Shown: positions 1,721-59,399 of the stretch, one piece after another
Layout of the letters: each line of letters opens with the position of its first letter
Position numbering within the stretch: the first letter of the stretch is position 1
Assembly (NCBI RefSeq): GCF_900108115.1
Contig: NZ_FTPU01000010.1
Location: 1-64,000 of the forward strand
Length of the DNA stretch: 64,000 nucleotides
Reading direction: 5' to 3'
DNA from: Epilithonimonas bovis DSM 19482
GTDB lineage: Bacteria > Bacteroidota > Bacteroidia > Flavobacteriales > Weeksellaceae
Made by a program: the position numbers and the translations under genes
Notes under the pieces: generated by a model
What the model saw: only the letters and a program-made list of their open reading frames with translations
What the model was told of the DNA's origin: nothing
The model's database searches: none

Positions 1721-4363
1721 ATGGAAAACCATCATCATAATCACGACAATCCGCATCCCGGCCAAAGAATATCACCAAGCTCTGTCTACTATTGCCCCAT
1801 GGAATGTGAGGGGGACAAACTCTATTTCAAGCCCGGCAGATGCCCGGTCTGCAATATGTTTCTGGTCCCGATAGAAGAACGGGAAGACCACAAAAACAAA
1901 CCGCAAACCTACTCAAAAACAAACCTTCCTGATAACTTCAAAGATAACATCGGCAAATATTACTGCCCTATGTTCTGCGAAGGAGATAAAGTCTACAATG
2001 AAAAGGGCGACTGCCCCGTGTGCCACATGCATCTGGAAAAAATCACGCCTGAGTTGGTTCATAATGCTGAATCTGCGGCCCACAGCCATCATCCCGACTC
2101 CCAAAAAGCAACAATTGAAACCGATAAAAACGCAGGCAAGTACTACTGCCCGATGTTTTGTGAGGGTGACAAAGTCTATGACTCCAATGTCGGCTGCCCT
2201 GTCTGCGGGATGGATCTGGTAAAGATCCCCGAAAAAAAATCGGTGCAGTACACCTGCCCTATGCATCCGCAAATCATCCGAGATGAGCCGGGCAGCTGCC
2301 CCATTTGCGGGATGGACCTGGTACCTATACCATCAAAAAACAATGACCACGAGGACGAAACTTACAAACGCTTAAGAAAAAAGTTCTGGTTGGCCCTGGG
2401 ATTTTCGGTGCCGGTATTTATCCTGTCCATGGGCGGGATGTTTATCAGCTGGCCTTTTTCGCATCAATTACAGGGGATCCTGGAACTGATACTCAGCATT
2501 CCGGTAGTTTTCTACGCAGGCTGGTTCCTGATAAAGCGTGGTTGGGTGTCCTTCAAAACCTGGAACCTCAACATGTTTTCTTTGATTGCGCTGGGCGTGG
2601 CAGCTGCATTTATTTTTAGTCTGGTGGCTTTGTTTTTCCCGCACATCCTGCCACACGAATTGGCACATGGCGGCAATGCGCCACTTTATTTCGAGTCGGT
2701 TTGTGTGATACTTACCCTCGTTATTATGGGACAGATGATGGAAGCGCGCGCCCATATGAAAACCGGGAAAGCCATCGAGGCCCTGATGAACCTTTCGCCG
2801 GATACCGCCAACCTAATCACCGACGGACAAGAGAAAAAAGTCCCTTTATCAGAAATTAAAATTAATGACATCCTACGCGTAAAACCGGGCGAAAAAATCC
2901 CTGTAGACGGCAAGATTACAGATGGCAATTCCAACGTAGACGAGTCTATGATTACCGGCGAGCCCATCCCGGTAGAGAAAAAAACAGGCGATAAAGTAAC
3001 GTCCGGCACTATTAACGGCAATGGGTCCTTCCTGATGGTCACAGAAAAAGTGGGCGACGAAACGCTGCTGTCCCAGATTATCAAAATGGTGAACGAAGCC
3101 AGCCGCAGCAAAGCCCCGATCCAGAAACTGGCTGATAAAATCTCCAAAATATTTGTTCCTGCAGTCATAGCAATAGCAATCATCACCTTTGTCCTATGGT
3201 CTGTTTTCGGGGGTGAGAACAAGATGATCTACGCATTTGTAAATGCCGTTGCCGTGCTGATTGTAGCCTGCCCCTGCGCGCTTGGCCTGGCGACACCAAT
3301 GAGCCTGATGGTAGGTATCGGGAAAGGTGCCCAAAACGGCATCCTTATCAAAAATGCCGAGGCGCTGGAAGAGATGCACAAAATCAATGTCCTGATTACT
3401 GACAAAACCGGGACGCTTACCGAAGGCAAACCAAGTCTGGACCACATCGAGACCTTTGACAATGCCGACAAAAACGATATCCTGAAACTGGCAGCTGCCC
3501 TTAACCAAAATTCGGATCACCCTTTATCCAATGCCGTTCTGGATACTTTCAAAAAAGCTCAGGCTGATCCTGCTGATATCCACTATGAGCAGGTCTCAGA
3601 CTTCGAAAACTTATCCGGGAAAGGTGTAAAGGGTATTATTGACAATCAGGAAATCCTCCTGGGTAATGAGGCCTTACTGAAACATTTTGACATCGTAATC
3701 CCAGAGGCATTACAGCAAAAAACAACACAGAGCGAAGACAAAGCCAGGACGATCTCTTACCTTGCAAAAGGCGGGAAAATCTTAGGCTTTTTAAGCTATT
3801 CTGACAATATCAAACCAAGCTCAAAACAGGCTGTTGATTATCTTCATTCTCAAAACATCCAGGTCATTATGATGACCGGCGATAACCAGCGCACGGCAAA
3901 AGCAGTGGCCGACACCCTGGGAATCCGTGATTACAAGGCCAACTGCCTGCCTGAGGACAAGATGAACGAAATCAAAAAACTGCAAAAGGAAGGTAAAATT
4001 GTAGCAATGACGGGGGATGGCATCAATGATGCACCAGCCCTGGCCCAGTCCAACATTGGGATTGCGATGGGGACCGGCAGCGATGCTGCCATAGAGAGCG
4101 CAGAGATTACACTGCTAAAGGGCGACATCTTGGGGGTTGCCAAAGCAAAAATCCTGAGCGAAAAACTATTGAAAAACATCAAACAAAACCTTTTCTTCGC
4201 CTTTATCTACAATATCCTGGGCATCCCGTTGGCGGCAGGCCTTCTCTACCCATTCTTCGGGATCTTGCTAAGCCCTATGATTGCCGCAGCAGCCATGAGC
4301 TTCAGCTCAGTATCTGTGATCCTGAACTCTCTGAGACTTAACAATGCAAAACTGGAGTTATAA
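1721..4363 (+). CDS. Copper-type P1B ATPase with four N-terminal heavy-metal-binding modules
   Basis: An 880-residue inner-membrane metal exporter of the CopA/P1B-1 type. The N-terminus begins with a His-rich run and carries four short heavy-metal-binding modules at about 23-51, 80-108, 141-169 and 177-203, each with CPM near its start and CP(V/I)C near its end; there is no standard HMA domain. The first three have the variant CPM(E/F)CEGDK with an extra Cys, and the fourth has the canonical CPMHP. The core contains the transmembrane CPC motif (about residue 517, [12 protein letters not shown]), the phosphorylation site DKTGTLTEG (Asp561), and GDGINDAP (about 766). CPC supports Cu(I) or Ag(I) export; substrate is inferred. 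It probably belongs to one unit with the HMA-AraC gene upstream. Confidence 0.93.
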
Positions 4364-7950: not shown

Positions 7951-7984
7951 AAAAAAAACTTCTTCCAGACAAGTCCGAAAGAAG
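7951..7984 (-). terminator. Intrinsic terminator forming the riboswitch expression platform
   Basis: On the minus strand, cttctttcgga and tctggaagaag (7959-7984) form an 11-bp stem with two G-T pairs and a 4-nt loop, followed directly by eight T residues (7951-7958). It lies between the S-box aptamer and the receptor start codon, where a premature transcription terminator is expected. The 3' P1 strand of the aptamer (gggaag) can pair with the 5' part of this stem (cttctt), giving a plausible antiterminator. Confidence 0.88.
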
Positions 7985-8027
7985 CATTACAAAGGATATG
8001 TTTAATATATCTGTACTATCTTTTTAA

Positions 8028-8124
8028 CTTATCTTCCCTTTTTACAAAGGCTGAATGTAACACCTTACCAGAGGCAGGTTGTTAAGACTTCTGCGGGTCA
8101 GGTCCCTCGGTCTTTCTTAATAAG
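8028..8124 (-). promoter_or_regulatory. SAM-I (S-box) riboswitch aptamer
   Basis: Read on the minus strand, the element starts with cttattaag and ends with gggaagataag, which pair to form P1. Between them are the conserved S-box core blocks gagggacctgacccg, then gaagtcttaacaacc, then ggtaaggtgttacattc. These match the SAM-I consensus, including the kink-turn side and the SAM-binding core, in the right order and spacing over about 97 nt. It is followed about 43 nt later by an intrinsic terminator and then by the TonB-dependent receptor gene. In this class, SAM binding stabilises P1, frees the terminator and turns expression off. A covariance-model search (Rfam SAM family) would settle it. Confidence 0.92.
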
Positions 8125-8150
8125 TATGACAACAATTCTTAATCACAGTG

Positions 8151-8182
8151 CAAAATAATTTGAAAATTTTGAGTTATCCAAA
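8151..8182 (-). promoter_or_regulatory. Putative promoter for the riboswitch-receptor transcript
   Basis: On the minus strand, TTTG (8179-8182) is followed after 21 nt by TATTTTG (8151-8157), a one-base-short version of the Bacteroidota -7 element TAnnTTTG. This would place the transcript start about 20 nt before the S-box P1 stem. Confidence 0.4.
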
Positions 8183-8286: not shown

Positions 8287-9033
8287 ATGAAAAAATACCA
8301 TGTTGGCTGCTCCGGATTTTACAACACCGATTGGAAGGGCACACTTTACCCATCCGACGCTCAGAACAAGGACTTCTTAAAATTATATTCTCAAAGCTTC
8401 GATACCGTTGAGATCAACAGTACATTTTACAGAAAACCAACTGCTAAAACCTTACAGAAGTGGTATGATGAGACCCCCGAGCACTTCAGCTTTTATATCA
8501 AGATCCCCAAGAGCATCTCTCATTTTGGATATTCGGAGGGTAAAGGAGAAGAACTGTCTGCATTCTGTGATTATATACAACAACATATCACGGGTAAGCT
8601 GGCTGGCTTTCTCATCCAGTTTCCGGCTTCTTTTCATTGCACAGAGAGCCATATAAAATTGTTATCAGAAACATTGCCCACCAACTTCCCTATCGCAGTG
8701 GAGTTTCGGCACAGCTCCTGGTGGAATGATGAAGTATTCAGCCTGTTCAGAAATAAACAGTGGATCTTCTGCGGTGTCAGCTTTCCGGGGAAAATACCGG
8801 ATGATCTCATCATTACAAATCCAACAACAGTCTACTACCGGCTGCATGGCAAACCGACGCTTTATAAATCAGCTTATTCGGATGATTTTCTCAGTGGCAT
8901 TGCGGACAAAATAAAAGCAAATGATCAGGATTTCTATATCATGTTCAATAATACATGGGGAACAGCCGCTATAGAAAATGCCTTGTACATGAAGAAGCTG
9001 TTGGGCCGCAATATCAATAAGGAAAAAGGATAA
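8287..9033 (+). CDS. DUF72-family protein (YecE-like)
   Basis: A 248-residue cytoplasmic protein with the DUF72 pattern: an N-terminal VGCSGFYNTDWKGTLYP, then FDTVEINSTFYRKPT, FLIQFPASF, AVEFRHSSWW and a C-terminal FNNTWGTAAIENA. The DUF72 family adopts a TIM-barrel-like fold and has no settled biochemical function; some authors suggest a nucleotide- or nucleic-acid-linked role. The gene is followed 41 bp later by a sirtuin gene on the same strand, so the two are probably co-transcribed. Length is normal for the family, and the ATG start agrees with the first conserved strand. Confidence 0.9.
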   Translation: MKKYHVGCSGFYNTDWKGTLYPSDAQNKDFLKLYSQSFDTVEINSTFYRKPTAKTLQKWYDETPEHFSFYIKIPKSISHFGYSEGKGEELSAFCDYIQQHITGKLAGFLIQFPASFHCTESHIKLLSETLPTNFPIAVEFRHSSWWNDEVFSLFRNKQWIFCGVSFPGKIPDDLIITNPTTVYYRLHGKPTLYKSAYSDDFLSGIADKIKANDQDFYIMFNNTWGTAAIENALYMKKLLGRNINKEKG

Positions 9034-34025: not shown

Positions 34026-35942
34026 CTATTTATAGCTTCTAACTGTAGGTTGTATTTCTTCAAAAACCAAAGGCTCTTTAACAAGCTCCGGCTCGTTATT
34101 TTCTCCTGTCCACGCCCAAGCGGATATAAACTGGTAATGTACATCATCACGCAAGGCTTCACCATCCGGTGTCTGATACTCTTCGCGGAAGTGCGCACCG
34201 CAGGATTCATTTCTTGTCAGGGCATCGTAACACATCAGCTCACCAATCTCAAAATAGTCTGCCACACGGCCGGCTTTTTCCAGTTCGGCATTCATTGCAT
34301 TACCGGATCCTGAGACTTTGACATCTTTGTAAAACTCTTCTTTCAGTTTTCTAATTTCAGCAATGGCATAGCGCAGGCCTTCGGCATTCCTTGCCAATCC
34401 GCAATAATCATAAAGCAGCTTACCCAATGTTTTATGGAAATAATCCACCGTTTTTGTCCCATTAATATTAATAAACTGATCGATCTGCTGTCTTACATTT
34501 TTCTCTGCTTCATCAAATTCCGGAGTATCCGATGCTATTTTACCTGTCCTGATCTCATTGGCCAGATAATTGGCAATGGTATAAGGCGCAATAAAATAAC
34601 CGTCTACAGAAGCCTGCAACAAAGAATTGGCACCCAATCGGTTGGCACCGTGATCTGCAAAATTAGCTTCACCCAAAGCAAATAAACCAGGCACAGTCGT
34701 CATCAACTCATAATCTACCCACAAACCACCCATCGAGAAATGGGCACTTGGCGAAATCATCATCGGCTGCTTGTAGGCATCATATCCGGTAATCTTGAGA
34801 TACATATCGAAGAGGTTGCCATATTTCTCCTGAATTTTGTTCTTGCCCTGCTCTTTGATAGCTTTGGAAAAATCGAGATACACGGCATTTTTAAGTGGCC
34901 CAATACCATAACCGGCATCAATTCTTTCTTTGGCAGCGCGGGAAGAGATGTCTCTTGGCGCAAGGTTACCAAATGCCGGATAACGGCGTTCCAGATAATA
35001 ATCACGTTCATTTTCCGGAATGGTATTAGGATCTCTGGCATCGTCTTTTTTCATGGGAACCCAGATTCTGCCATCGTTTCTCAGGGATTCTGACATTAAC
35101 GTTAATTTGGATTGATAATCTCCGGATTGTGGTAAACATGTGGGATGGATCTGAATCCAGCTTGGCGAAGCCATCAGCGCCCCTTTTTTATGCGCCCGCC
35201 AGATTGCTGAGCCATTACACCCCATGGCCAGTGTTGACAGGTAATAGATTTTGCCATATCCGCCCGTGGCCAGGATTACGGTGTGGGCAGCATGCCTCTC
35301 CAACTCGCCGGTATCCAGATTCCGGGCAATGATGCCTCGTGCTTTGCCATCTACAACAACCAGGTCAAGCATCTCGTGCCTGGAGAAAAGCTGCACGCTT
35401 TTTTTACCAATCTGCCTTTGCAAAGCCTGATAAGCTCCCAAAAGCAACTGTTGCCCGGTCTGCCCTCTTGCATAAAAGGTCCTGCTGACCTGCACACCAC
35501 CAAAGGAACGGTTATTAAGATAACCACCATATTCCCGCCCAAACGGGACGCCCTGCGCAACAGCCTGGTCTATCAGGTTGAGTGAACATTCTGCCATACG
35601 GTAAACATTAGCTTCCCTGGCGCGGAAATCACCACCTTTTATGGTATCCACAAACATCCGGTAAACACTGTCGCCATCATTTTTATAATTTTTAGCCGCG
35701 TTTACGCCACCCTGCGCAGCAACTGAGTGTGCTCTTCTGGGACTATCCTGGAAACAGAATGATTTTACATTATAGCCCATCTCGCCCAGAGATGCTGCAA
35801 TGGAACTGCCTGCCAGACCTGTACCCACAACAATAACATCCAGCTTTTTCCGGTTGGCAGGATTTACAATTTTGGCTGTTTTTTTATAATTGGCCCATTT
35901 ATGTTCAAGAGGGCCTTCTGGTATTTTTGAGTTTAGAATCAT
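34026..35942 (-). CDS. sdhA: Succinate dehydrogenase/fumarate reductase flavoprotein
   Basis: A 638-residue flavoprotein with the FAD dinucleotide fold [20 protein letters not shown], the covalent-FAD His in [15 protein letters not shown] and active-site segments HPTCLPQSG and [13 protein letters not shown]. It oxidises succinate to fumarate or the reverse. The length and the single-cytochrome context match the Bacteroidota/epsilon-type complex. Located at the cytoplasmic face of the inner membrane with SdhB and SdhC. Direction of catalysis cannot be decided by sequence. Confidence 0.95.
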
Positions 35943-35954
35943 AATTTTTCATTT

Positions 35955-36611
35955 TTATTTGGCTGTAAAAAAGACATAAACAGGCATGATCGCAAAACCA
36001 AGACTGATAATCACGGCATAAGCAACAGCAGCTTTATGAAACCACTTTACATACTTGGGATGAAACAGGCCCAATGTTCGGGTTGCACTGTAAATGCCAT
36101 GAATAAGGTGGTAACACAAAGCAATCATAGATAATACATAAATAACCACATACCACCATTCTTTGAAAACAGTAACAACCAGAATGTAAAGATCCTTATT
36201 CCCATTACTATCGAGTGGAATGCTACCAAATTTGTAAACATACCAGAAATTCTGAAAATGAATCACCAGAAAAATCAAGAGTATCGTACCCAGAATCCCC
36301 ATATTGCGTGAATACCATTTGCTGGCTCTTGCACGGCGGTCATTTTGATAATTACCTTGTGTTTTTCTATTCTTGATTGTAATAATCAGGCCGTCCACAG
36401 CATGTAAAATAATACTGGCGTACAACACATAAGAAACAATCTTGATAATAATATTGCCTGATAAAAAATGGGAATAGGTGTTAAACTGTAAATGAGCCTG
36501 CTCCTGCGGAAGAAACAGCTGCAGGTTTCCCAGAAAGTGTATCAGAAGGAAAAAACTTAAGAAAAGCCCCGTAAGGCACATAAGCATTTTCCTGGATAAT
36601 GTAGATAGCAT
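35955..36611 (-). CDS. sdhC: Succinate dehydrogenase cytochrome b subunit
   Basis: A 218-residue membrane protein with five hydrophobic segments and His residues in LLIHFLGNLQLF, IILHAVDGLII, FLVIHFQNFWY and CYHLIHGIYSA that can ligate two b hemes. Such a single large cytochrome b anchors SdhAB and reacts with menaquinone in Bacteroidota. It lies 12 bp upstream of sdhA in the operon. Confidence 0.93.
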   Translation of the reverse strand: MLSTLSRKMLMCLTGLFLSFFLLIHFLGNLQLFLPQEQAHLQFNTYSHFLSGNIIIKIVSYVLYASIILHAVDGLIITIKNRKTQGNYQNDRRARASKWYSRNMGILGTILLIFLVIHFQNFWYVYKFGSIPLDSNGNKDLYILVVTVFKEWWYVVIYVLSMIALCYHLIHGIYSATRTLGLFHPKYVKWFHKAAVAYAVIISLGFAIMPVYVFFTAK

Positions 36612-36627
36612 AATTTTGTTTTAAAGA

Positions 36628-38058
36628 TTAATAATAACCAAGAACTTTCATCCAAAGTCCGCCTACAACCATATAAATGATAAGCAGGACCACACCAATT
36701 TCTAAGCCCCGAAGCCACCAGGCTTTAAGATCCACATAACCGCTTCCGAAGAAAACTGGCGCCGGGCCGTGACCATACTGTGTAAGAACGCCATAAATTG
36801 AACCCACAAACCCAAGCATCATAGCCAGCAACATTGGCGGCACACCTACCGCTACACCTACGCCCAACAGCGCTGCGTACATGGCTGCAACGTGTGCTGT
36901 TGCACTGGCGAATATATAGTGGCTGAAAAAGTAAACAATAACAATGACCGGAAATGCCACCTGCCAACTCAAACCGGATATTTCTGTTTTGATAAGGCCA
37001 CTGAACCAGCCTATAAACCCAAGATCATTCAGTGAACTGGCCATCATCACAAGCACTGCAAACCAAACAATGGTGTCCCATGCTCCTTTTTCGGATTTTA
37101 CATCTTCCCAGGTCAGTACAGAAGTTAACAATAACAAAGTAAGCCCCATAAAAGCAGTGGTAGTAGCATCAATAGACAACGCACCTCCAAAAATCCAAAG
37201 CCCTAAAAGAATGAAGAACGCGAGAAGCATCAGCCATTCATTTTTAGAAATTGGCCCCATCTCTTTCAGTTTTTGTGAAGCTACTTTGGGCGCGTCTTCT
37301 GTTTTTTTGAGTTCAGGCGGATAAAGTTTGTATAAAACAAATGGCACTACAAAGAAAGCTACCAGGCCTGGCAGAAAACCAGCTTCGGCCCACGACATCC
37401 ATGTGATGTTAATCCCCAGATTGGCTGCAAACTTTTGGCACATCGGGTTACTGGCAGTCCCAGTTAAAAACATAGACGAGGCTATCAGATTCATATAATA
37501 ACTATTCAACGTTAAAAACGAACCGAGTTTCCTGTGCGTTTCTTCTTTGTCCGGCAGCGAGCCAAAGTTAATGGCCATAGACTTCATAATCGGGTAAATG
37601 ATACCACCGCCACGTGCAGTATTACTTGGTATAGCCGGCGCAAGGCATAGATCTGCAAGCCCCAACCCGTAGGCCAAACCGAGAGAGCTTTTACCAAAAA
37701 TACGGATAAAGAGAAAAGCAATCCTGTTGCCCAAACCAGTTTTGATAAAACCTCTGGCAATAAAAAACGAAATCCCTATAAGCCAAATCACTTTATCACC
37801 AAAGCCTGTTAATGCTTTTGTAATCGACTTGCCGGCATCACCCGGCGCTAATACCTGTGTAAGCGCCGTAACGCCTAAAGCAAGCATACACATCGTTCCC
37901 ATCGGTGCCGCTTTGAGGATAATCCCCAAAATAGTGGCTGCAAAAATCGCAAACAGGTGCCAGGCATCTTCTGTAACGCCTTTAGGTACCGGAATAAACC
38001 ATAATAAAACCGCAATGGCAATTGTAATGGCTACATTTCTGATGTTAATTTCTTTCAT
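36628..38058 (-). CDS. DASS-family dicarboxylate/sodium symporter
   Basis: The 476-residue protein has about twelve hydrophobic segments and both repeats of the divalent-anion:sodium symporter family: the first SNT motif in PAIPSNTARGGG and the second motif region GTASNPMC, then HYIFASATAHVAAMYAALL. SLC13/DASS transporters carry succinate, malate, fumarate or related anions. Its place directly upstream of sdhCAB and downstream of a porin gene argues that C4-dicarboxylates are the substrate. Sulfate or tricarboxylate cannot be excluded. Confidence 0.9.
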   Translation of the reverse strand: MKEINIRNVAITIAIAVLLWFIPVPKGVTEDAWHLFAIFAATILGIILKAAPMGTMCMLALGVTALTQVLAPGDAGKSITKALTGFGDKVIWLIGISFFIARGFIKTGLGNRIAFLFIRIFGKSSLGLAYGLGLADLCLAPAIPSNTARGGGIIYPIMKSMAINFGSLPDKEETHRKLGSFLTLNSYYMNLIASSMFLTGTASNPMCQKFAANLGINITWMSWAEAGFLPGLVAFFVVPFVLYKLYPPELKKTEDAPKVASQKLKEMGPISKNEWLMLLAFFILLGLWIFGGALSIDATTTAFMGLTLLLLTSVLTWEDVKSEKGAWDTIVWFAVLVMMASSLNDLGFIGWFSGLIKTEISGLSWQVAFPVIVIVYFFSHYIFASATAHVAAMYAALLGVGVAVGVPPMLLAMMLGFVGSIYGVLTQYGHGPAPVFFGSGYVDLKAWWLRGLEIGVVLLIIYMVVGGLWMKVLGYY

Positions 38059-38079
38059 GATAATGATTGTATTAATCGG

Positions 38080-39234
38080 TTAAAATCTGCTTTGTACCTG
38101 TATTATAAAAAGATTGTTGTTGTACTGCGTTGTATTAGGCGTCTGGTTTTTGTATCGGTCAAACTGCATCCCCAACTGGATTCTTGCACCATAATCTTTG
38201 AGGAACTCCAAGCCCAGCATTGGTGTAATGGTTTGCCTTGGATTAGAATTAATTTTATAATTCGTATCCAGATATTCATAACGGCAGGAGAACTCAAATG
38301 CACTTAAGTTTTTATGATGAATCTCATACCTCAAATTAGGAAGAAAATAAATCCCTCTAATCTGATAATCATTGATATTAGACGATCTTAAAGCCGGATC
38401 CAATGCGTAATAAAGAACATGATTGGTGCCTTGTTTGGCTTCCAGCTGCATGTCCAGACTCCATTTGGGATCAAATTGGACTAATGATGTCAGATCGGCG
38501 CCCAGCGCATATACTTTGTGAGAAGATACTTCTCCCACGCCACCGTTAAGCCCCAGGTTGAGCCCGTATTTTTTCACCAGGCCAAAAACCAGCCTTGTAG
38601 AATATTGCTTACCATTATCGCTGTCGTTAATCTGATTTTTACCATTACCATTCACCACAGACACGGCATACTTGAACGGCATGTTACCCAACTTTAGCTG
38701 GCCGTTGGCAGAGAGGCCAATCTGAAAACTCGTCCATCCCAATTTTCCAAATTCGGTATATTGGTTAGACCAGTTCAGGGATTTTATTATATCAATCGGA
38801 TAAGTCTCCTCTATCCCAAACCATGGACGGAATTGCCCTGCCGTAATGGAGAGTTTTGGGCTGAAGGTATATTTCAAATAAGCATTCTCCAATACTCTGG
38901 ATTTGGGGTCGTTTTTAAAATCTGCCAAATTGGCTAATACTACCACATTAGTCCTTTTGCTGATCTTCGCCTGCATCTGCACCCGCATATACTTAATCAG
39001 GAACGTGTTATCTGTGCCGCTTTGGTCTACATGATGCAGGCCATTAACATCTACATCTTTTGTAAGACTCTCCACATAACGCGCCTGAAAAAGGCCCTTG
39101 AACTGAAACTGCGGATATTTTACCACCTCTTTGGGTTCCTCAACTTTGGAACTGTCTGTGGTTTGTGATTTAGAAACTGCAAAAAACAGTAAAAGAATAG
39201 AGATAAAACCTTTTTTAAGAACATTGGATTTCAT
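38080..39234 (-). CDS. OprO/OprP-like outer-membrane porin
   Basis: A 384-residue protein with a signal peptide (about 1-24, ending FAVSKSQ), a short linker and a beta-barrel of alternating residues ending in an aromatic C-terminus (FIIQVQSRF). The pattern matches phosphate-selective-porin-like (OprO/P) proteins in Bacteroidota. As first gene of an operon with a dicarboxylate transporter and succinate dehydrogenase, it likely admits C4-dicarboxylates to the periplasm; that is inference. A TATCTTTG -7 element lies about 130 nt upstream. Confidence 0.85.
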   Translation of the reverse strand: MKSNVLKKGFISILLLFFAVSKSQTTDSSKVEEPKEVVKYPQFQFKGLFQARYVESLTKDVDVNGLHHVDQSGTDNTFLIKYMRVQMQAKISKRTNVVVLANLADFKNDPKSRVLENAYLKYTFSPKLSITAGQFRPWFGIEETYPIDIIKSLNWSNQYTEFGKLGWTSFQIGLSANGQLKLGNMPFKYAVSVVNGNGKNQINDSDNGKQYSTRLVFGLVKKYGLNLGLNGGVGEVSSHKVYALGADLTSLVQFDPKWSLDMQLEAKQGTNHVLYYALDPALRSSNINDYQIRGIYFLPNLRYEIHHKNLSAFEFSCRYEYLDTNYKINSNPRQTITPMLGLEFLKDYGARIQLGMQFDRYKNQTPNTTQYNNNLFIIQVQSRF

Positions 39235-44958: not shown

Positions 44959-45990
44959 TTATTTTTTATTTTGTTGTGCCAAAATAAGAGCTTCTATATC
45001 TCTCCAATCGTAGATGTGAAAAACTTTTCCGTTGCTCATTGCTACAAACATACCTTTAGGAAAATCTGGTCCAAAATTAACATTACTAACATCCGATCCA
45101 TCACTTTCTTTAGTAGAAACTGGTATGATAGCAATCCTTTGGTATGTATTTTTATTAGTATCTCCTTCACGTCTATAGACATTAAAAGTATTGGCTTGCT
45201 GATCTGAGACCAAAATATAACCTGTTTTCTCACCTGTTGGATAAATAGAAATCCCTTCGATATCTGATTTGAAATCATTGGTACCAAATAAAGCTAATTG
45301 TTCATTAGAAGCTGATGGATCTGCATTATATTTATGAATCCCGTATTGTTCATCAGAATAATATATTACTCCCAAAGCATCATCTACTGCAATAGATTCT
45401 ATTTCTTTTTTACCTGAGTATTCGCCAAACTTACGAACGAGCTCTCCAATTACTTGTCCATTACCATCATCTTTCAGTAGATATTGATACAAATACGAGC
45501 CAGAAGGTCCTGTTTTTCTCCCAACAACTGCATAAATTTGTTGTGTTGCAGGGTTTTTATATAATGCAATACCCATTGGACTTTTTTGATCGCTATCTTC
45601 GAAAACAGAAATCCCTCCGTTATCTATTGGTTTTAGATCTGGCACCGAAAAAACACGTATTTTGTTAGTTTCGCGCTCTGTAAATACAGCGATATCCATT
45701 TTTTTACCACCTACTTCTAATCCATATTCTACATCAATGTTGTTGGGACGTTGTATCCCCAAAACTTTATTTACAATCTTACCTTTTAAATCGTAAACAT
45801 AAATCCCTCCATTGGTTTCTTTGTCTGTACCTAAAATTAAACTTTTGGAGGCATCTTGTGGATTAATCCAAAATGCTGGATCATCTGTATCAAACTGAAC
45901 TTTTTGTGTTTTATAAACTGGTTTAACCTTCATAGATGTACATTGTACCATCAAAAAAGAAACCGAAGCTATCAATAATATCTTTTTCAT
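44959..45990 (-). CDS. Beta-propeller phytase, lipoprotein
   Basis: A 343-residue protein with a lipobox-like start (SVSFLMVQCTS) and the six-bladed beta-propeller phytase pattern: DDPAFWINPQDASKSLILG, KIVNKVLGIQRPNNIDVEYG, and KFGEYSGKKEIESIAVDDA with the acidic residues that bind Ca2+ and phytate. The enzyme would release phosphate from phytate at the cell surface or in the periplasm. It overlaps the receptor gene by one base (TAATG), so translation is coupled. The GC content of this gene is clearly lower than that of gcvP. Confidence 0.9.
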   Translation of the reverse strand: MKKILLIASVSFLMVQCTSMKVKPVYKTQKVQFDTDDPAFWINPQDASKSLILGTDKETNGGIYVYDLKGKIVNKVLGIQRPNNIDVEYGLEVGGKKMDIAVFTERETNKIRVFSVPDLKPIDNGGISVFEDSDQKSPMGIALYKNPATQQIYAVVGRKTGPSGSYLYQYLLKDDGNGQVIGELVRKFGEYSGKKEIESIAVDDALGVIYYSDEQYGIHKYNADPSASNEQLALFGTNDFKSDIEGISIYPTGEKTGYILVSDQQANTFNVYRREGDTNKNTYQRIAIIPVSTKESDGSDVSNVNFGPDFPKGMFVAMSNGKVFHIYDWRDIEALILAQQNKK

Positions 45991-48821
45991 TAAAAATCGA
46001 ATTTTAGTCCTACGTTGTATCTTGGTTTATAATATTCCATTTGCATTGTTCTGTTCTTTTCGCCTTGGTAATATCTTAATGGTTGATTGGTAAGATTATT
46101 AGCTTCAACAAAGAATCTTATTTTTTCTGTGATGGCATAAGATACGTTAGCGTCTAAGAAGGTTTGTTTATCATAGTAACGGTCATCAAAAGCAACACCT
46201 CCAATCTCATCTAAATAAGAAGCTGTATAGTTAAGCGATACACGCGCGGAGAATCTTTTGTTTTCCCAAGATAAGGACGAGTTAAACATATGTGGTGCTG
46301 TTCCTGGCAACATAAGACCTTCTCTTTGTACATCATCTCCTACAATACCTTTGGCTTTGGAATGTGTATAAGTATAATTGGCATAAATCCCAAAATAACT
46401 AAGAAAACCAGGTAGAAAATCTAGTTGTCTCTGCAAAGCAACTTCAAAACCATAAACGTCTACACTTTGTCCGTTTCTGGCTTGTGAAAATACGTAGGTG
46501 TTATCTGCTCCCAAATCATTAGCGAGATCAGGAAACTGTTGTGTAAACTTGTCTCTTGTAAAATTTTGATCGATGTAATTAAAGATAAATTTATTAATCT
46601 TTTTGTAAAAACCACCAATTGATATTAATCCCACTGATTTGAAATAGTACTCTCCCATTACATCGAAGTTATGAGCATAAGAAGCTTTCAAATCTGGATT
46701 ACCTGCATGTATTTGTGCATCTTCTCCTGGTGTAATATTCACAAATGGAGACAAATTGTAATAACCTGGTCTTGCCAAAGAAGTTGTATAAGCAGCCCTA
46801 AGAACCATATCATCTGTTGGCGTATACTTGAAGGTAATGCTTGGCAAATAATTGGTATAGTCGTTTTTGATTTTTCTCTCACCTTCTAACATTACATCAT
46901 CATCTTCGGTTTTGGTGATATTACCAGTATACTCTGTGTGGGTATTTTCTAAACGAAGACCTGCAATGAAAGAAAAATCATCCGTAATATTTTGGTCCCA
47001 ACGGATATATCCAGCATAGATTTGCTCTTTGGCTTTGTAATTTACGCCTAGATATTCTGCAGGATTACTTTCTGAAGAAAACATTCCTGTATTGTATAAA
47101 TCCAAATTGCCTAATAATTGTTTTGATGCAAAATATCCTGGGATATACTTGCTATTTGGAGACCAATTTTTACCATCCCAATAGACTGGATTAATTTTAT
47201 CCATTGTGGCTAAGCTGGTGTTGGCATCGGTTGGAGTATAGTCATTAAAACTGTTCTCTCTTTCTTTTTGTTTGATTCTTGTTTTTGCTCCAAATCTCAA
47301 TCTGCCTTTTTGCTCTGATATGATATTAAGCGGAATTCTAAGATCTACTTTCCCCGTAATCTCATCTTCATAAGTATGACCAAACTGCTCCGTAAGTGTT
47401 CGGAATTTAAAGGATTTGAGTGTAGGTTCTGTTGTTGGCGTTAGTAATGGTTCTTTCTCACTATCATAACCAGAAAGTGCTACTCCCTTTGACTGATAAT
47501 CTATATAACGTTCATTAGGGCGGTCTTCGGACGCTCGTGAATAACCTCCAGACCAATTTAATTGTAGCTGAGAACCCAACAAATGTTCACCATTGATAAA
47601 ATAGTTTTGCATAATCTGGCGTTCTAGCCTTGCCGCTTTACTTTTATCAGTATCTATACCACCTTTGGTTTGTGCTCTAAGATCAGCTTTGTAACCAGTA
47701 ATAAGACTTTCATCTGTTTTGTCGTAGATAGGTGTAACTTTATTAAATCTCAGTCTATACCTATTTTCCCAATCGTCTCGCCAGTTATAAACAGCACCAG
47801 CTTTGATGATATTTTTATCATTAATTTTAAAATCAAAATTAGCCCCTAAACTTTTACGCTCTCTTCTTACATCATATTTGCGAATATCCATCTCTCTGAT
47901 GTAAGCATTACCAAATTTATCTTGCGCCCAAACACCTTCTACATTATCAGACCCATAATCTTGATTATTATAAGAACCGTTGAAAACAAACCCAAATTTT
48001 TTACCAAAATAACGGTTACCATACATAAAAGCTGTATTACTAGATACTTTATCTCTAATAGGATTATAACCCCCAGCCGCGGTAAGAGATATTCTTTCTT
48101 TGTTTGGTGCAGTTCTTGTGATGAGATTTACGGAGCCTCCAATGGCGTCTGCATCCATATCTGGCGTTAAGGTTTTGTTAACTTCGATAAGTTGAATCAT
48201 ATCGGAAGGAATTAGATCCATCTGAACTCGTCTATTATTACCTTCTGCTGACGGAATTCTGTTTCCATTGAGAGTAACTGAGTTAAGTTCTGGAGCCAAA
48301 CCTCTAATAATAATATCTCTAGCTTCACCTTGGTCATTTTGCATCGTAATCCCAGGTACTCGTTTTAAAGCATCTCCGATATTAGAATCCGGAAATTTCC
48401 CTACCTGATCAGACGAAACAATATTGGTGATATTAGAATTATTTTTCTGCGTATTTAGGGCTCTAGCTTGGTTTTGTCTGCTAATACCAAGAAGCCGAAC
48501 CTCTTTTATTGTAGTTGATTTATTTTTATCAAACAAAACATCTACGCTAGTATTATTCTCGGATTTCACAACTACTGTTGATTGCTGACTGCCATAACCA
48601 ATATAATCTACGGTTAGCGTATAGGTTCCTTCTGGAACATTAAGGAAGACATAATCGCCTGTAGCATCAGATATTGTGTAATAATTACCAGGTGTTAAAG
48701 TTAGTTTTGCCCCAGGCAAAGGAATTTGGTTACTATCATTAATAATCCCAGAGATACTACCTTTTTGCGCAAACACAAAAACTGTTGCACAAAAAAGTAC
48801 AGTTGTAATAAGCTTTTTCAT
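45990..48821 (-). CDS. TonB-dependent receptor paired with phytase
   Basis: A 943-residue receptor with a signal peptide (ending VFVFAQ), a CarboxypepD-regulatory-like domain (about 20-110, IINDSNQIPLPGAKLTLTPG), a plug domain (GDALKRVPGITMQNDQGEA; SDMIQLIEVNKTLTPDMDAD) and a barrel ending KPRYNVGLKFDF. The domain order matches TonB-dependent receptors that bring in large or bulky ligands. It is the first gene of a two-gene unit with the phytase, so the likely cargo is phytate, an inositol phosphate or a product; this is inference. Lower GC than its neighbours. Confidence 0.92.
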   Translation of the reverse strand: MKKLITTVLFCATVFVFAQKGSISGIINDSNQIPLPGAKLTLTPGNYYTISDATGDYVFLNVPEGTYTLTVDYIGYGSQQSTVVVKSENNTSVDVLFDKNKSTTIKEVRLLGISRQNQARALNTQKNNSNITNIVSSDQVGKFPDSNIGDALKRVPGITMQNDQGEARDIIIRGLAPELNSVTLNGNRIPSAEGNNRRVQMDLIPSDMIQLIEVNKTLTPDMDADAIGGSVNLITRTAPNKERISLTAAGGYNPIRDKVSSNTAFMYGNRYFGKKFGFVFNGSYNNQDYGSDNVEGVWAQDKFGNAYIREMDIRKYDVRRERKSLGANFDFKINDKNIIKAGAVYNWRDDWENRYRLRFNKVTPIYDKTDESLITGYKADLRAQTKGGIDTDKSKAARLERQIMQNYFINGEHLLGSQLQLNWSGGYSRASEDRPNERYIDYQSKGVALSGYDSEKEPLLTPTTEPTLKSFKFRTLTEQFGHTYEDEITGKVDLRIPLNIISEQKGRLRFGAKTRIKQKERENSFNDYTPTDANTSLATMDKINPVYWDGKNWSPNSKYIPGYFASKQLLGNLDLYNTGMFSSESNPAEYLGVNYKAKEQIYAGYIRWDQNITDDFSFIAGLRLENTHTEYTGNITKTEDDDVMLEGERKIKNDYTNYLPSITFKYTPTDDMVLRAAYTTSLARPGYYNLSPFVNITPGEDAQIHAGNPDLKASYAHNFDVMGEYYFKSVGLISIGGFYKKINKFIFNYIDQNFTRDKFTQQFPDLANDLGADNTYVFSQARNGQSVDVYGFEVALQRQLDFLPGFLSYFGIYANYTYTHSKAKGIVGDDVQREGLMLPGTAPHMFNSSLSWENKRFSARVSLNYTASYLDEIGGVAFDDRYYDKQTFLDANVSYAITEKIRFFVEANNLTNQPLRYYQGEKNRTMQMEYYKPRYNVGLKFDF

Positions 48822-57606: not shown

Positions 57607-59136
57607 TTATTCCCATTCTATGGTTGCAGGTGGTTTTGAACTAATATCGTATGCCACTCTGTTGATTCCTCTCACTTCGTTGATAATCCTGCTGGAAACG
57701 GTGTCCAGAAACTCATAAGGCAGTCGGCTCCAGGTTGCAGTCATAAAGTCGATCGTATTGGCAGAACGTACCACCGCAGTATATTCATAGGTTCTCTCAT
57801 CACCCATTACACCGACAGATTTTACCGGCAATAGTACGACAAAAGCCTGAGAGACTTTCTCATAAAGACCATTTTTATACAACTCCTGGATGAAGATATC
57901 GTCCGCTTCCTGCAATATTCTCACTTTTTCTGCGTCTACGGCTCCTAAAATACGGATACCCAATCCCGGGCCCGGAAAAGGATGCCTGTACACCAAATGA
58001 TGCGGAATACCTAGCTCCTCGCCCACTTTTCTTACTTCATCTTTGAACAATTCTCTTAGAGGTTCCAGTAATTCAAACTCCATTTCTTCAGGAAGTCCGC
58101 CTACGTTATGATGCGATTTGATAACAGCAGAAGGCCCGTTAACAGACTGCGATTCGATAACATCAGGATAGATTGTTCCCTGTGCCAGGAATTTTGCGCC
58201 TTCTATTTTGTGAGATTCTTCATCAAAAACATGTACAAACTCATTACCGATGATTTTACGTTTCTGTTCGGGATCATCTATACCAGCCAGTTTTGAAAGA
58301 AAGCGCTCCGAAGCGTCAATCAGTTTGATATTAAGATGAAAATGTTCGCCATAATTCTCCATGACTTTCTGCGCTTCATCTTTTCTCAAAAGCCCGGTAT
58401 CTACAAAGATACAAGTCAGCTGATCACCAATAGCTTTATGAATCAATACAGCAGCAACAGAAGAATCTACACCGCCGGAAAGCCCAAGAATCACTTTTTG
58501 GCTACCCACTTTTTCTTTGATCTCGGCAACTGTTTTTTCTATATAATTGGTTAGTTTCCAGTTTTTATCGGCTTTACAAATCCCGAAAACGAAATTCTCC
58601 AGCATTTTCCCTCCTTCTTCGGAATGAGAAACTTCCGGATGAAACTGGACACCATAGATCTTCTTATCAGGATTAGAAATGGCTGCGATGACACCCGATT
58701 TGGCATTCAGTTCAAAACCTTGCGGCAATGCTGCAACCTCGTCAAAATGGCTCATCCAAATAATAGAGTTCTGGCTAACGCCTTTTAACAAATGGTTTTC
58801 TTTGATAATGTCCAGATGGGCTTTGCCATATTCGCCTTTTTCGCCTTTTGCCACTTTTCCGCCTAAAAGGTGGGCTGTCAACTGCATCCCATAGCAGATC
58901 CCAAGAACAGGAATCCCCTGTTCGTACAATTCTTTTTCTACGAGATGAGCATTTTCTGCGTTGACAGAGCTTGGCCCTCCGGAAAGTATAATTCCTTTTG
59001 GCTTTTTTGCCAATATATCCGATAGTGGTGTATTGAATGGCAATATCTCCGAATAGACCTCCATCTCACGGATTCTTCTCCCTATTAACTGATTGTATTG
59101 TGAACCGAAGTCTAAAATGATAATTCCGTTTTGCAT
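57607..59136 (-). CDS. guaA: GMP synthase (glutamine-hydrolysing)
   Basis: A 509-residue enzyme converting XMP to GMP. The class I amidotransferase domain has the nucleophile in LGICYGMQLTAHLLGG and the His-Glu pair in FHPEVSHSEEGG; the ATP-PPase domain has GLSGGVDSSVAAVL and the C-terminal dimer domain ends PPATIEWE. Unusually, its upstream region holds two microsatellite arrays beginning 11 bp before the start codon. It is near purD, another purine gene, but they are separated by a 304-bp repeat-rich gap. Confidence 0.96.
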   Translation of the reverse strand: MQNGIIILDFGSQYNQLIGRRIREMEVYSEILPFNTPLSDILAKKPKGIILSGGPSSVNAENAHLVEKELYEQGIPVLGICYGMQLTAHLLGGKVAKGEKGEYGKAHLDIIKENHLLKGVSQNSIIWMSHFDEVAALPQGFELNAKSGVIAAISNPDKKIYGVQFHPEVSHSEEGGKMLENFVFGICKADKNWKLTNYIEKTVAEIKEKVGSQKVILGLSGGVDSSVAAVLIHKAIGDQLTCIFVDTGLLRKDEAQKVMENYGEHFHLNIKLIDASERFLSKLAGIDDPEQKRKIIGNEFVHVFDEESHKIEGAKFLAQGTIYPDVIESQSVNGPSAVIKSHHNVGGLPEEMEFELLEPLRELFKDEVRKVGEELGIPHHLVYRHPFPGPGLGIRILGAVDAEKVRILQEADDIFIQELYKNGLYEKVSQAFVVLLPVKSVGVMGDERTYEYTAVVRSANTIDFMTATWSRLPYEFLDTVSSRIINEVRGINRVAYDISSKPPATIEWE

Positions 59137-59295: not shown

Positions 59296-59399
59296 CCAAC
59301 TAGCCCCGATAGAAGCGGCATCCTTTTTTTGCGAGGCGGCGGAGCGTAGCGGAGCTGACCGAGTAAAAAAAGATATAGCGGATAGCGGGAAATAGCTCC
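59296..59399. repeat. REP-like GC-rich imperfect palindrome
   Basis: An approximately 104-bp element: gccccgatagaagcggcatc followed by a T-run, a GC-rich core (gcgaggcggcggagcgtagc...) and an A-run with gatatagcggatagcggga. The two ends are imperfect inverted copies. The composition is far from the local AT-rich background. Similar elements are, as far as I recall, common in Flavobacteriia intergenic regions; a genome search would confirm. Confidence 0.6.

Follow-up and report, generated by a model that had tools for sequence, protein, structure and literature searches.

The window, i.e. the whole stretch of 64,000 nucleotides analysed here (contig NZ_FTPU01000010.1 of Epilithonimonas bovis DSM 19482), encodes a TonB-dependent receptor (TBDR), which we call type A, and a SAM-I riboswitch lies in the leader of this gene (Table 1). 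The first-pass annotation, made from the letters alone, had placed a 940-residue receptor 3′ of a riboswitch, and this was confirmed: the ORF has that length and carries both a Plug domain (PF07715, 72.6 bits) and a TonB_dep_Rec_b-barrel domain (PF00593, 100.2 bits). Its ATG follows the aptamer end after 101 nt. Since the flanking genes, encoding a P-type ATPase and a DUF72 protein, are on the opposite strand, the receptor is presumably transcribed alone, and it has no permease neighbour. The ATPase contains four HMBD heavy-metal-binding stretches. Elsewhere in the window, we found a Flavo-1 RNA (RF01705, 68.9 bits) between guaA (57607-59136, minus strand) and the next minus-strand ORF. In addition, a PF02333 phytase gene and the gene of a CarboxypepD_reg-type TBDR overlap by one base and are likely a phytate-use pair, and a third cluster perhaps serves dicarboxylate import and use.

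Table 1. Positions of the features at the receptor locus, elsewhere in the window and in three type B loci
Feature	Position	Strand	Basis
TonB-dependent receptor, type A, 940 aa	7924-5102	minus	ORF + Pfam
SAM-I (S-box) riboswitch aptamer, P1-P4 and loop-P2/J3-4 pseudoknot	8126-8026	minus	Rfam RF00162
Intrinsic terminator hairpin, 12 bp, 4-nt loop, then U-run	7985-7958	minus	
Candidate Bacteroidota-type promoter: TTTG 8182-8179, 21-nt spacer, TATTTTG 8157-8151	8182-8151	minus	
Candidate operator: TGATATTTATCA palindrome overlapping TCATAC-N7-GTATGA	8216-8189	minus	
Copper-type metal P-type ATPase, downstream of the receptor	1721-4363	plus	
DUF72 gene, upstream, divergent	start 8287	plus	
Flavo-1 RNA	59298-59396	plus	RF01705
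Phytase and CarboxypepD_reg-type TBDR	44959-48821	minus	PF02333 (phytase)
Fumarate-reductase-like flavoprotein, Na_sulph_symp-family symporter, Porin_O_P protein	34026-39234	minus	
SAM-I, type B TonB receptor and LAT-like permease unit	L407 5708-9456	minus	
SAM-I, type B TonB receptor and LAT-like permease unit	L408 4554-8291	minus	
SAM-I, type B TonB receptor and LAT-like permease unit	L405 288-4062	plus	

The Pfam and NCBIfam matches of the type A receptor include neither a CarboxypepD_reg domain nor the SusC signature (TIGR04056/TIGR04057), and a SusD partner is absent as well, so that all three marks of a SusC/RagA receptor are missing. NCBIfam returned only siderophore, haem and B12 receptor models, all below cutoff; against the BtuB models, the receptor scored 54.5 vs 599.7 bits (TIGR01779) and 38.4 vs 836 (PRK10641). 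By sequence, the nearest solved structures are PirA, FepA, PfeA and Cir, with matches that span the plug only. A structure model of moderate confidence (mean pLDDT 68.8) had PirA, PfeA, FepA, Cir and BtuB as top Foldseek matches at 12-16% identity, and neither the model nor these matches narrowed the substrate. Between barrel strands, a helix-rich insert of about 100 residues is predicted (residues about 260-358). The same genome encodes a 57% paralog of the receptor, which is without a SAM site.

For the aptamer, the RF00162 match has 70.8 bits, where the gathering score is 44.4 bits, and an E-value of 1.5e-14 in the search of the window; model positions 1-108 are all covered. This covariance-model search agrees with the first-pass annotation, which had put an S-box aptamer at 8028-8124, at most two bases off at each end. 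To count covariation, we used 41 aptamers (39 distinct) and 6 helices: 97.8% of the cells were paired (slid controls 38-48%) and 17 of 29 pairs were changed on both sides, the pseudoknot included. The loop-P2/J3-4 pseudoknot alone was 96.8% paired, with changes on both sides in 3 of its 4 pairs. All helices of the aptamer and the pseudoknot are therefore supported by the pair counts. When the leader was folded in full, the minimum-energy structure did not include the aptamer and was no better than those of shuffled sequences (z -0.24).

The aptamer is followed by an intrinsic terminator (-13.6 kcal/mol). An 11-bp stem with eight T's had been described before; the terminator and its U-run were found again, but the stem has 12 bp. 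A terminator scan of this region alone gave 5 candidates vs a shuffle mean of 3.7 (sd 1.8), a small excess, and the terminator is convincing because it is conserved across leaders rather than from that scan. A hairpin with a U-run is present in all 24 SAM-linked type A leaders (20 of Epilithonimonas and 4 of Elizabethkingia), and the Elizabethkingia hairpin differs in sequence from that of Epilithonimonas. Furthermore, an antiterminator, in which the terminator 5′ arm pairs with bases of the P1 3′ strand or directly behind it, is predicted in 13 of the 20 Epilithonimonas leaders, including that of the window; in two of the 13, the pairing bases come just after the P1 strand. We had expected a universal antiterminator, and this was rejected, because it was predicted in neither the other 7 Epilithonimonas leaders nor any of the 4 Elizabethkingia leaders; thus we do not claim it as conserved. 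The candidate promoter, about 25 nt 5′ of the aptamer, resembles what we take to be the Bacteroidota consensus, and with small tolerances its pattern recurs in 21 of the 24 SAM-linked leaders.

Conservation of the riboswitch-receptor pair

The window's genome (3.35 Mb) has two SAM-I sites. The other one heads a metX-hom-metZ-metH-metF cluster, which encodes MetX, homoserine dehydrogenase, an O-succinylhomoserine sulfhydrylase-like MetZ, two MetH parts and MetF. Among the 23 genomes of the genus, 20 have a type A ortholog (the window's receptor counted; 82-86% identity to it), and a SAM-I site lies directly 5′ of the receptor in 20/20. The arrangement is therefore not due to chance. Each of the three genomes without the receptor (G002, G013 and G019) has one SAM site, and the receptor-type site is absent.

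To look outside the genus, we scanned 62 named loci encoding type A relatives with a covariance model built in this analysis. A SAM site was found 5′ of the receptor in 19 of them, namely in all 16 Epilithonimonas-type loci (80-84% identity) and all 3 Elizabethkingia loci. The 16 consist of Epilithonimonas and a few records that carry the label Chryseobacterium or Flavobacteriaceae and fall among them in the receptor protein tree, which was built with 20 of the 43 type A rows of Chryseobacterium. None of these 43 Chryseobacterium loci has a SAM site 5′ of its type A ortholog. In a second genome collection, upstream stretches contained a SAM site in 4/4 Elizabethkingia (g42) orthologs, and in none of 57 Chryseobacterium (g39), 4 g45 and 2 g2 leaders nor in the single leaders of g10, g6 and g13, the g13 stretch being shortened by a contig end. 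At least 79 orthologs outside the genus reach 66% identity or more; upstream sequence covers 70, eight more are not covered, and one is a fragment. The two collections overlap in species, so that their counts should not be added.

The first-pass annotation had proposed a survey of other genomes for the same pair, and had held that homologues consistently found without the riboswitch would speak against it. The pair does recur, both in the genus (20/20) and in Elizabethkingia (4/4). Homologues without the switch are what we found in Chryseobacterium (0/43) and g45 (0/4), but not in Epilithonimonas and Elizabethkingia.

Receptor types B and C

In 20 Weeksellaceae genomes, we classified the gene downstream of 51 SAM sites by BLAST to reference genes from these loci. 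There were 33 sites heading met genes, 17 heading TBDRs, and one heading neither, which scored below the Rfam cut-off. Because the genomes were chosen partly for having 3-4 SAM sites each, the share of 17 in 51 should not be taken as a rate for the whole family. One of these TBDR sites (L146) lies in a short locus and was assigned to type A from ortholog and upstream data. SusC receptors accounted for 8 of the 51 sites. Meanwhile, in 30 other Bacteroidota genomes, 79 SAM sites were distributed over 64 met genes, 3 SusC receptors and 12 others, a BLAST class that may conceal sulfur genes (one resembles MetE by eye).

Type B receptors have about 815 aa, about 120 residues fewer than type A, and are 43-44% identical to it. 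Within 7-63 nt they are followed by the gene of an amino-acid permease (PF13520), whose closest PDB relatives are transporters of the b0,+AT, LAT2 and xCT type. Each of the 14 type B loci read, from three genera (six of Chryseobacterium, four of g40 and four of g35; examples in Table 1), combines SAM-I, receptor and permease, and we regard this unit as a candidate methionine import operon. As a possible inner-membrane counterpart of type A, this permease was sought in the 23 Epilithonimonas genomes, and no ortholog was found: at E 1e-30 there were only three matches, at 29% identity. Epilithonimonas homologs of 41-43% identity (L385-L388) were rejected as orthologs of the SAM-linked type B receptor, since they branch far from it in the tree; their best SAM-model match had 17 bits (E 0.073).

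Type C consists of a SusC receptor (TIGR04056, 782 bits) and a SusD-family lipoprotein, and occurs in Chryseobacterium and Elizabethkingia. The three SusC sites outside the Weeksellaceae set belong to one genus of family f17 (two sites) and to family f23 (one site). The f23 site has a gap of 502 nt and scored 44 bits with our model, which is weak, and 68.2 bits with Rfam. A lipoprotein-like gene follows SusC in all three loci, and only that of f23 has a SusD match (30% over 138 residues).

In a tree of the aptamers, type A and type C aptamers formed one clade (98/96), adjoined by the Elizabethkingia metY aptamer, and the metX/metH aptamers formed a separate clade (100/99). Those of type B and of the f17 SusC receptor were placed elsewhere with weaker support. 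This tree has 22 rows and 105 columns, and its resolution is low. Such a grouping would be expected if type A and SusCD loci had come by their leader through copying from one to the other and if type B had independently recruited a different one.

The pair had also been suggested to mark a methionine-uptake system in Bacteroidota. This idea gains from the recurrence of SAM-controlled type B/permease units and SusCD pairs; the type A genes of Chryseobacterium and g45, which are without the switch, complicate it.

Some further SAM-linked loci were also observed. In Elizabethkingia L412 (6718-12499, minus strand), three POT-family-like peptide transporter genes and a thioredoxin-like gene, identified by eye, lie beside the SAM-controlled receptor, before the riboswitch. 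In three g16 loci (L019, L324 and L327), the best SAM-I site heads a gene for a protein of 338-366 aa with a signal-like start, which is not a met reference gene. In two other families, SAM-I sites (L342 and L358) precede genes that by eye are PAPS-reductase-like, which would link SAM to sulfate assimilation.

Candidate operators in the receptor leaders

A search of 420 loci and the window (421 sequences, 2.43 Mb, redundancy included) gave 85 occurrences of the palindrome AGTCTA-N9-TAGACT, always with a spacing of 9, although 7-11 was allowed. All 85 copies are in receptor leaders, either of riboswitch-less type A (Chryseobacterium and g45; for example L248 3911-3931) or of SAM-controlled type C (Chryseobacterium). 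Sixty permuted half-sites, as a control, gave a mean of 1.1 matches and a maximum of 14. At 11-12 of 12 matching positions, the palindrome was present in the type A leaders of all 43 named and all 57 second-collection Chryseobacterium orthologs and of 4/4 g45, vs 6 of 3958 random 300-nt stretches; it was found in none of the 19 named SAM-linked leaders nor in g42 (0/3), g10 (0/1), g2 (0/2) and g6 (0/1). At 10 matches, it also occurs outside leaders, and in the window there is no site at 10 or more.

As for the other receptor types, the palindrome is present in all six Chryseobacterium SAM-controlled type C leaders, and two Elizabethkingia type C leaders have fewer than 10 of 12 matches. Weaker versions (11 and 10 of 12) precede the f17 SusCD sites, and a 10/12 variant lies upstream of a SAM-linked cysteine-desulfurase-like gene (L316). 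Six Chryseobacterium type B leaders reach 11/12, with the second half overlapping the aptamer 5′ end, which may be chance, and the four g40 type B loci have ACTCTA-N9-TAGAGT. By their leader sequences, type A receptors in which the switch was lost or never present thus share a putative operator with SAM-controlled importers. Since the switch-less type A leaders of Chryseobacterium and g45 carry this conserved element, the riboswitch link looks replaced and not simply absent, and control of type A seems to have been exchanged between riboswitch and putative operator.

The window's leader has a different candidate operator (Table 1), situated just upstream of the -33 box, and the divergent gene that starts at 8287 may be controlled from it as well. 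Its TGATATTTATCA palindrome resembles by eye what we presume to be a Fur box. The overlapping element recurs as TCATAC-N7-GT(A/G)(T/G)GA in 13 of the 20 leaders of the genus, and a similar TCATAC-N7-GTAGGA is found upstream of the SAM-controlled metY sites in G004, G011 and G017. In addition, 14 of the 19 named SAM-linked leaders have the 14-mer ATGATATTTATCAT without a mismatch, two more have it with two mismatches, and the three Elizabethkingia leaders with four; within one mismatch, it is present in 8/8 type C leaders vs 0/1827 random stretches. Among the fetched loci, the exact 13-mer TGATATTTATCAT occurs in SAM-linked receptor leaders only.

Regulation, substrate and known systems

Our genome comparisons demonstrate, at the level of sequence, the aptamer, the terminator, their pairing with the receptor and the recurrence of the switch with types B and C; we infer that the aptamer binds SAM. 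When SAM is plentiful, its binding would stabilise P1, the terminator would form, and the receptor would not be made. When SAM is low, P1 would open, the region of its 3′ strand would pair with the terminator 5′ arm, and the receptor would be transcribed. This direction (off at high SAM) is the one expected by analogy with the riboswitch family, and repression of the receptor by SAM appears well supported by comparison. Most likely, what the receptor carries through the outer membrane is methionine, a peptide that contains it or another of its precursors, and the receptor would be one of several SAM-controlled outer-membrane importers in the family (types A, B and C). In our judgement, it is probable that the SAM-I leader terminates transcription at high SAM and that the receptor imports a methionine source as a member of this importer set. 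For type A itself, the best inference is that it imports methionine or a related compound.

Methionine or a methionine source is proposed as the substrate because of the set of co-controlled genes. This reading is favoured because the other SAM-I site of the same genome heads met genes, type B carries an amino-acid permease, type A and type C aptamers form a clade, switch-less type A shares the putative type C operator of Chryseobacterium, and the genome's own cobalamin riboswitch precedes another TBDR. Type B, with its permease, fits uptake of a free amino acid, and the SusCD pairs would fit uptake of peptides. However, the same reading is weakened by the Chryseobacterium orthologs without a riboswitch, the lack of a type B permease ortholog in the genus, a plug and fold most like those of iron-siderophore receptors, an antiterminator that is not universal, the further palindrome in the leader, and a thiamine case in Bacteroides thetaiotaomicron that is described below.

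B12 offers the best rival, because MetH is present in all genomes of the genus and MetJ controls btuB elsewhere. Type A would then import cobalamin or another cobamide for MetH, and SAM shortage would raise B12 import, as in the MetJ-btuB case. MetH (PF02965) was found in 23/23 genomes and lies within the SAM-headed cluster of the window's genome, BtuB is among the fold matches of the receptor, and btuB is listed in the core MetJ regulon in the available text of that study (PMC4239095). However, 22 of the 23 genomes have a cobalamin riboswitch match, and since that of the window's genome heads a different TBDR (L212), B12 uptake seems separately controlled. In addition, MetH is also encoded in the three genomes that lack the receptor, the score of type A against the B12-receptor model TIGR01779 is far too low (see above), and an amino-acid permease belongs to the related type B system. 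We consider cobamide import unlikely.

An improbable alternative is that type A is a siderophore or metal-chelate receptor, controlled mainly by a metal-responsive repressor at the upstream palindrome, with a SAM layer that reports on methionine or Fe-S metabolism. The nearest solved relatives (PirA, FepA, PfeA and Cir, by sequence and fold, at 14-16% identity) and the presumed Fur-box likeness of TGATATTTATCA point this way, but the sequence matches are confined to the plug, which is the most alike part among TBDRs, and they say little on the ligand. Furthermore, the restriction of the 13-mer to SAM-linked receptor leaders among the fetched loci speaks against this alternative, and type B with its amino-acid permease fits it poorly. 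Even less credible is SAM as a general nutrient signal for a receptor whose substrate is unrelated to methionine, e.g. sugars or general peptides: three unlike receptor types carry the switch and SusCD pairs mostly import glycans or peptides, but 33 of the 51 SAM sites in the same 20 genomes head methionine genes, and the type B operon includes the amino-acid permease.

Returning to methionine import, a wider picture can be drawn from the same sequences, on which we are evenly divided. Weeksellaceae and some other Bacteroidota may have a dedicated SAM-sensing regulon for acquisition of methionine or methionine peptides through the outer membrane with three importers, in which control of type A was swapped between the riboswitch (Epilithonimonas and Elizabethkingia) and the AGTCTA-N9-TAGACT operator with its putative regulator (Chryseobacterium and g45) and the Chryseobacterium SusCD pair has both.

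Methionine entry in Gram-negative bacteria is generally attributed to porins and inner-membrane transporters such as MetNIQ. If our reading is true, an energised, SAM-controlled route for methionine through the outer membrane would be new. It would also suggest a substrate to be tested with orphan TonB receptors and an annotation rule for others, since any genome can be scanned for SAM-I sites. Furthermore, if one gene is under a riboswitch in one genus and under a presumed protein-binding operator in a related one, this would be a clean example from nature of one control replacing another, and the AGTCTA-N9-TAGACT operator provides a handle on its putative regulator.

Among the matches listed in a search of the open-access literature, none reports a SAM riboswitch with a TonB, SusC or outer-membrane receptor, which does not prove absence. 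In Bacteroidota, the known targets of SAM-I (RF00162) are metX, metY, metH and similar genes, unlike the TBDR here; the aptamer family is the same, and in this genus both kinds of target are found within one genome. In the available text of one study, S-boxes were described from Bacteroidetes/Chlorobi metagenome fragments, and all annotated targets but one were previously known (PMC2211319). The main text of a large RNA-regulon survey that covers Bacteroidaceae, as available, contains neither "TonB" nor "outer membrane" (PMC3766115).

MetJ is SAM-responsive. In gammaproteobacteria it controls btuB and methionine transporters, according to the available text of the regulon study, the main text of which does not use the word "TonB" (PMC4239095). 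Both there and here, a methionine regulator would act on outer-membrane uptake, and MetJ also acts on inner-membrane methionine transport. However, the MetJ case involves a protein repressor, a B12 receptor and another phylum.

Riboswitch-controlled TBDRs are already known for B12 and thiamine, as far as the available text describes them (PMC5613172). B12 transporters of Bacteroidota are under B12 riboswitches (PMC5613172), i.e. a cofactor-sensing riboswitch before a TBDR, as also seen in the window's genome; here both the riboswitch class and the receptor are others, and type A falls far below the B12-receptor model. For B. thetaiotaomicron, the same text reports a TPP riboswitch on the TBDR gene OMthi, on pnuT and on a biosynthetic operon; the transporter genes showed no significant change of expression with thiamine, and single transporter deletions were without growth effect, a phenotype appearing only in combined deletions (PMC5613172). 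Because of this case, a riboswitch before a TBDR is not by itself proof of regulation. We found here a known aptamer and a known receptor class in a new combination with several instances, and, on the text available, OMthi and PnuT are the closest worked case: in both systems an end-product riboswitch precedes a TBDR, and a permease and a biosynthetic operon are also switched, whereas the ligand there is TPP and here would be SAM, and the window's receptor is without a known permease partner.
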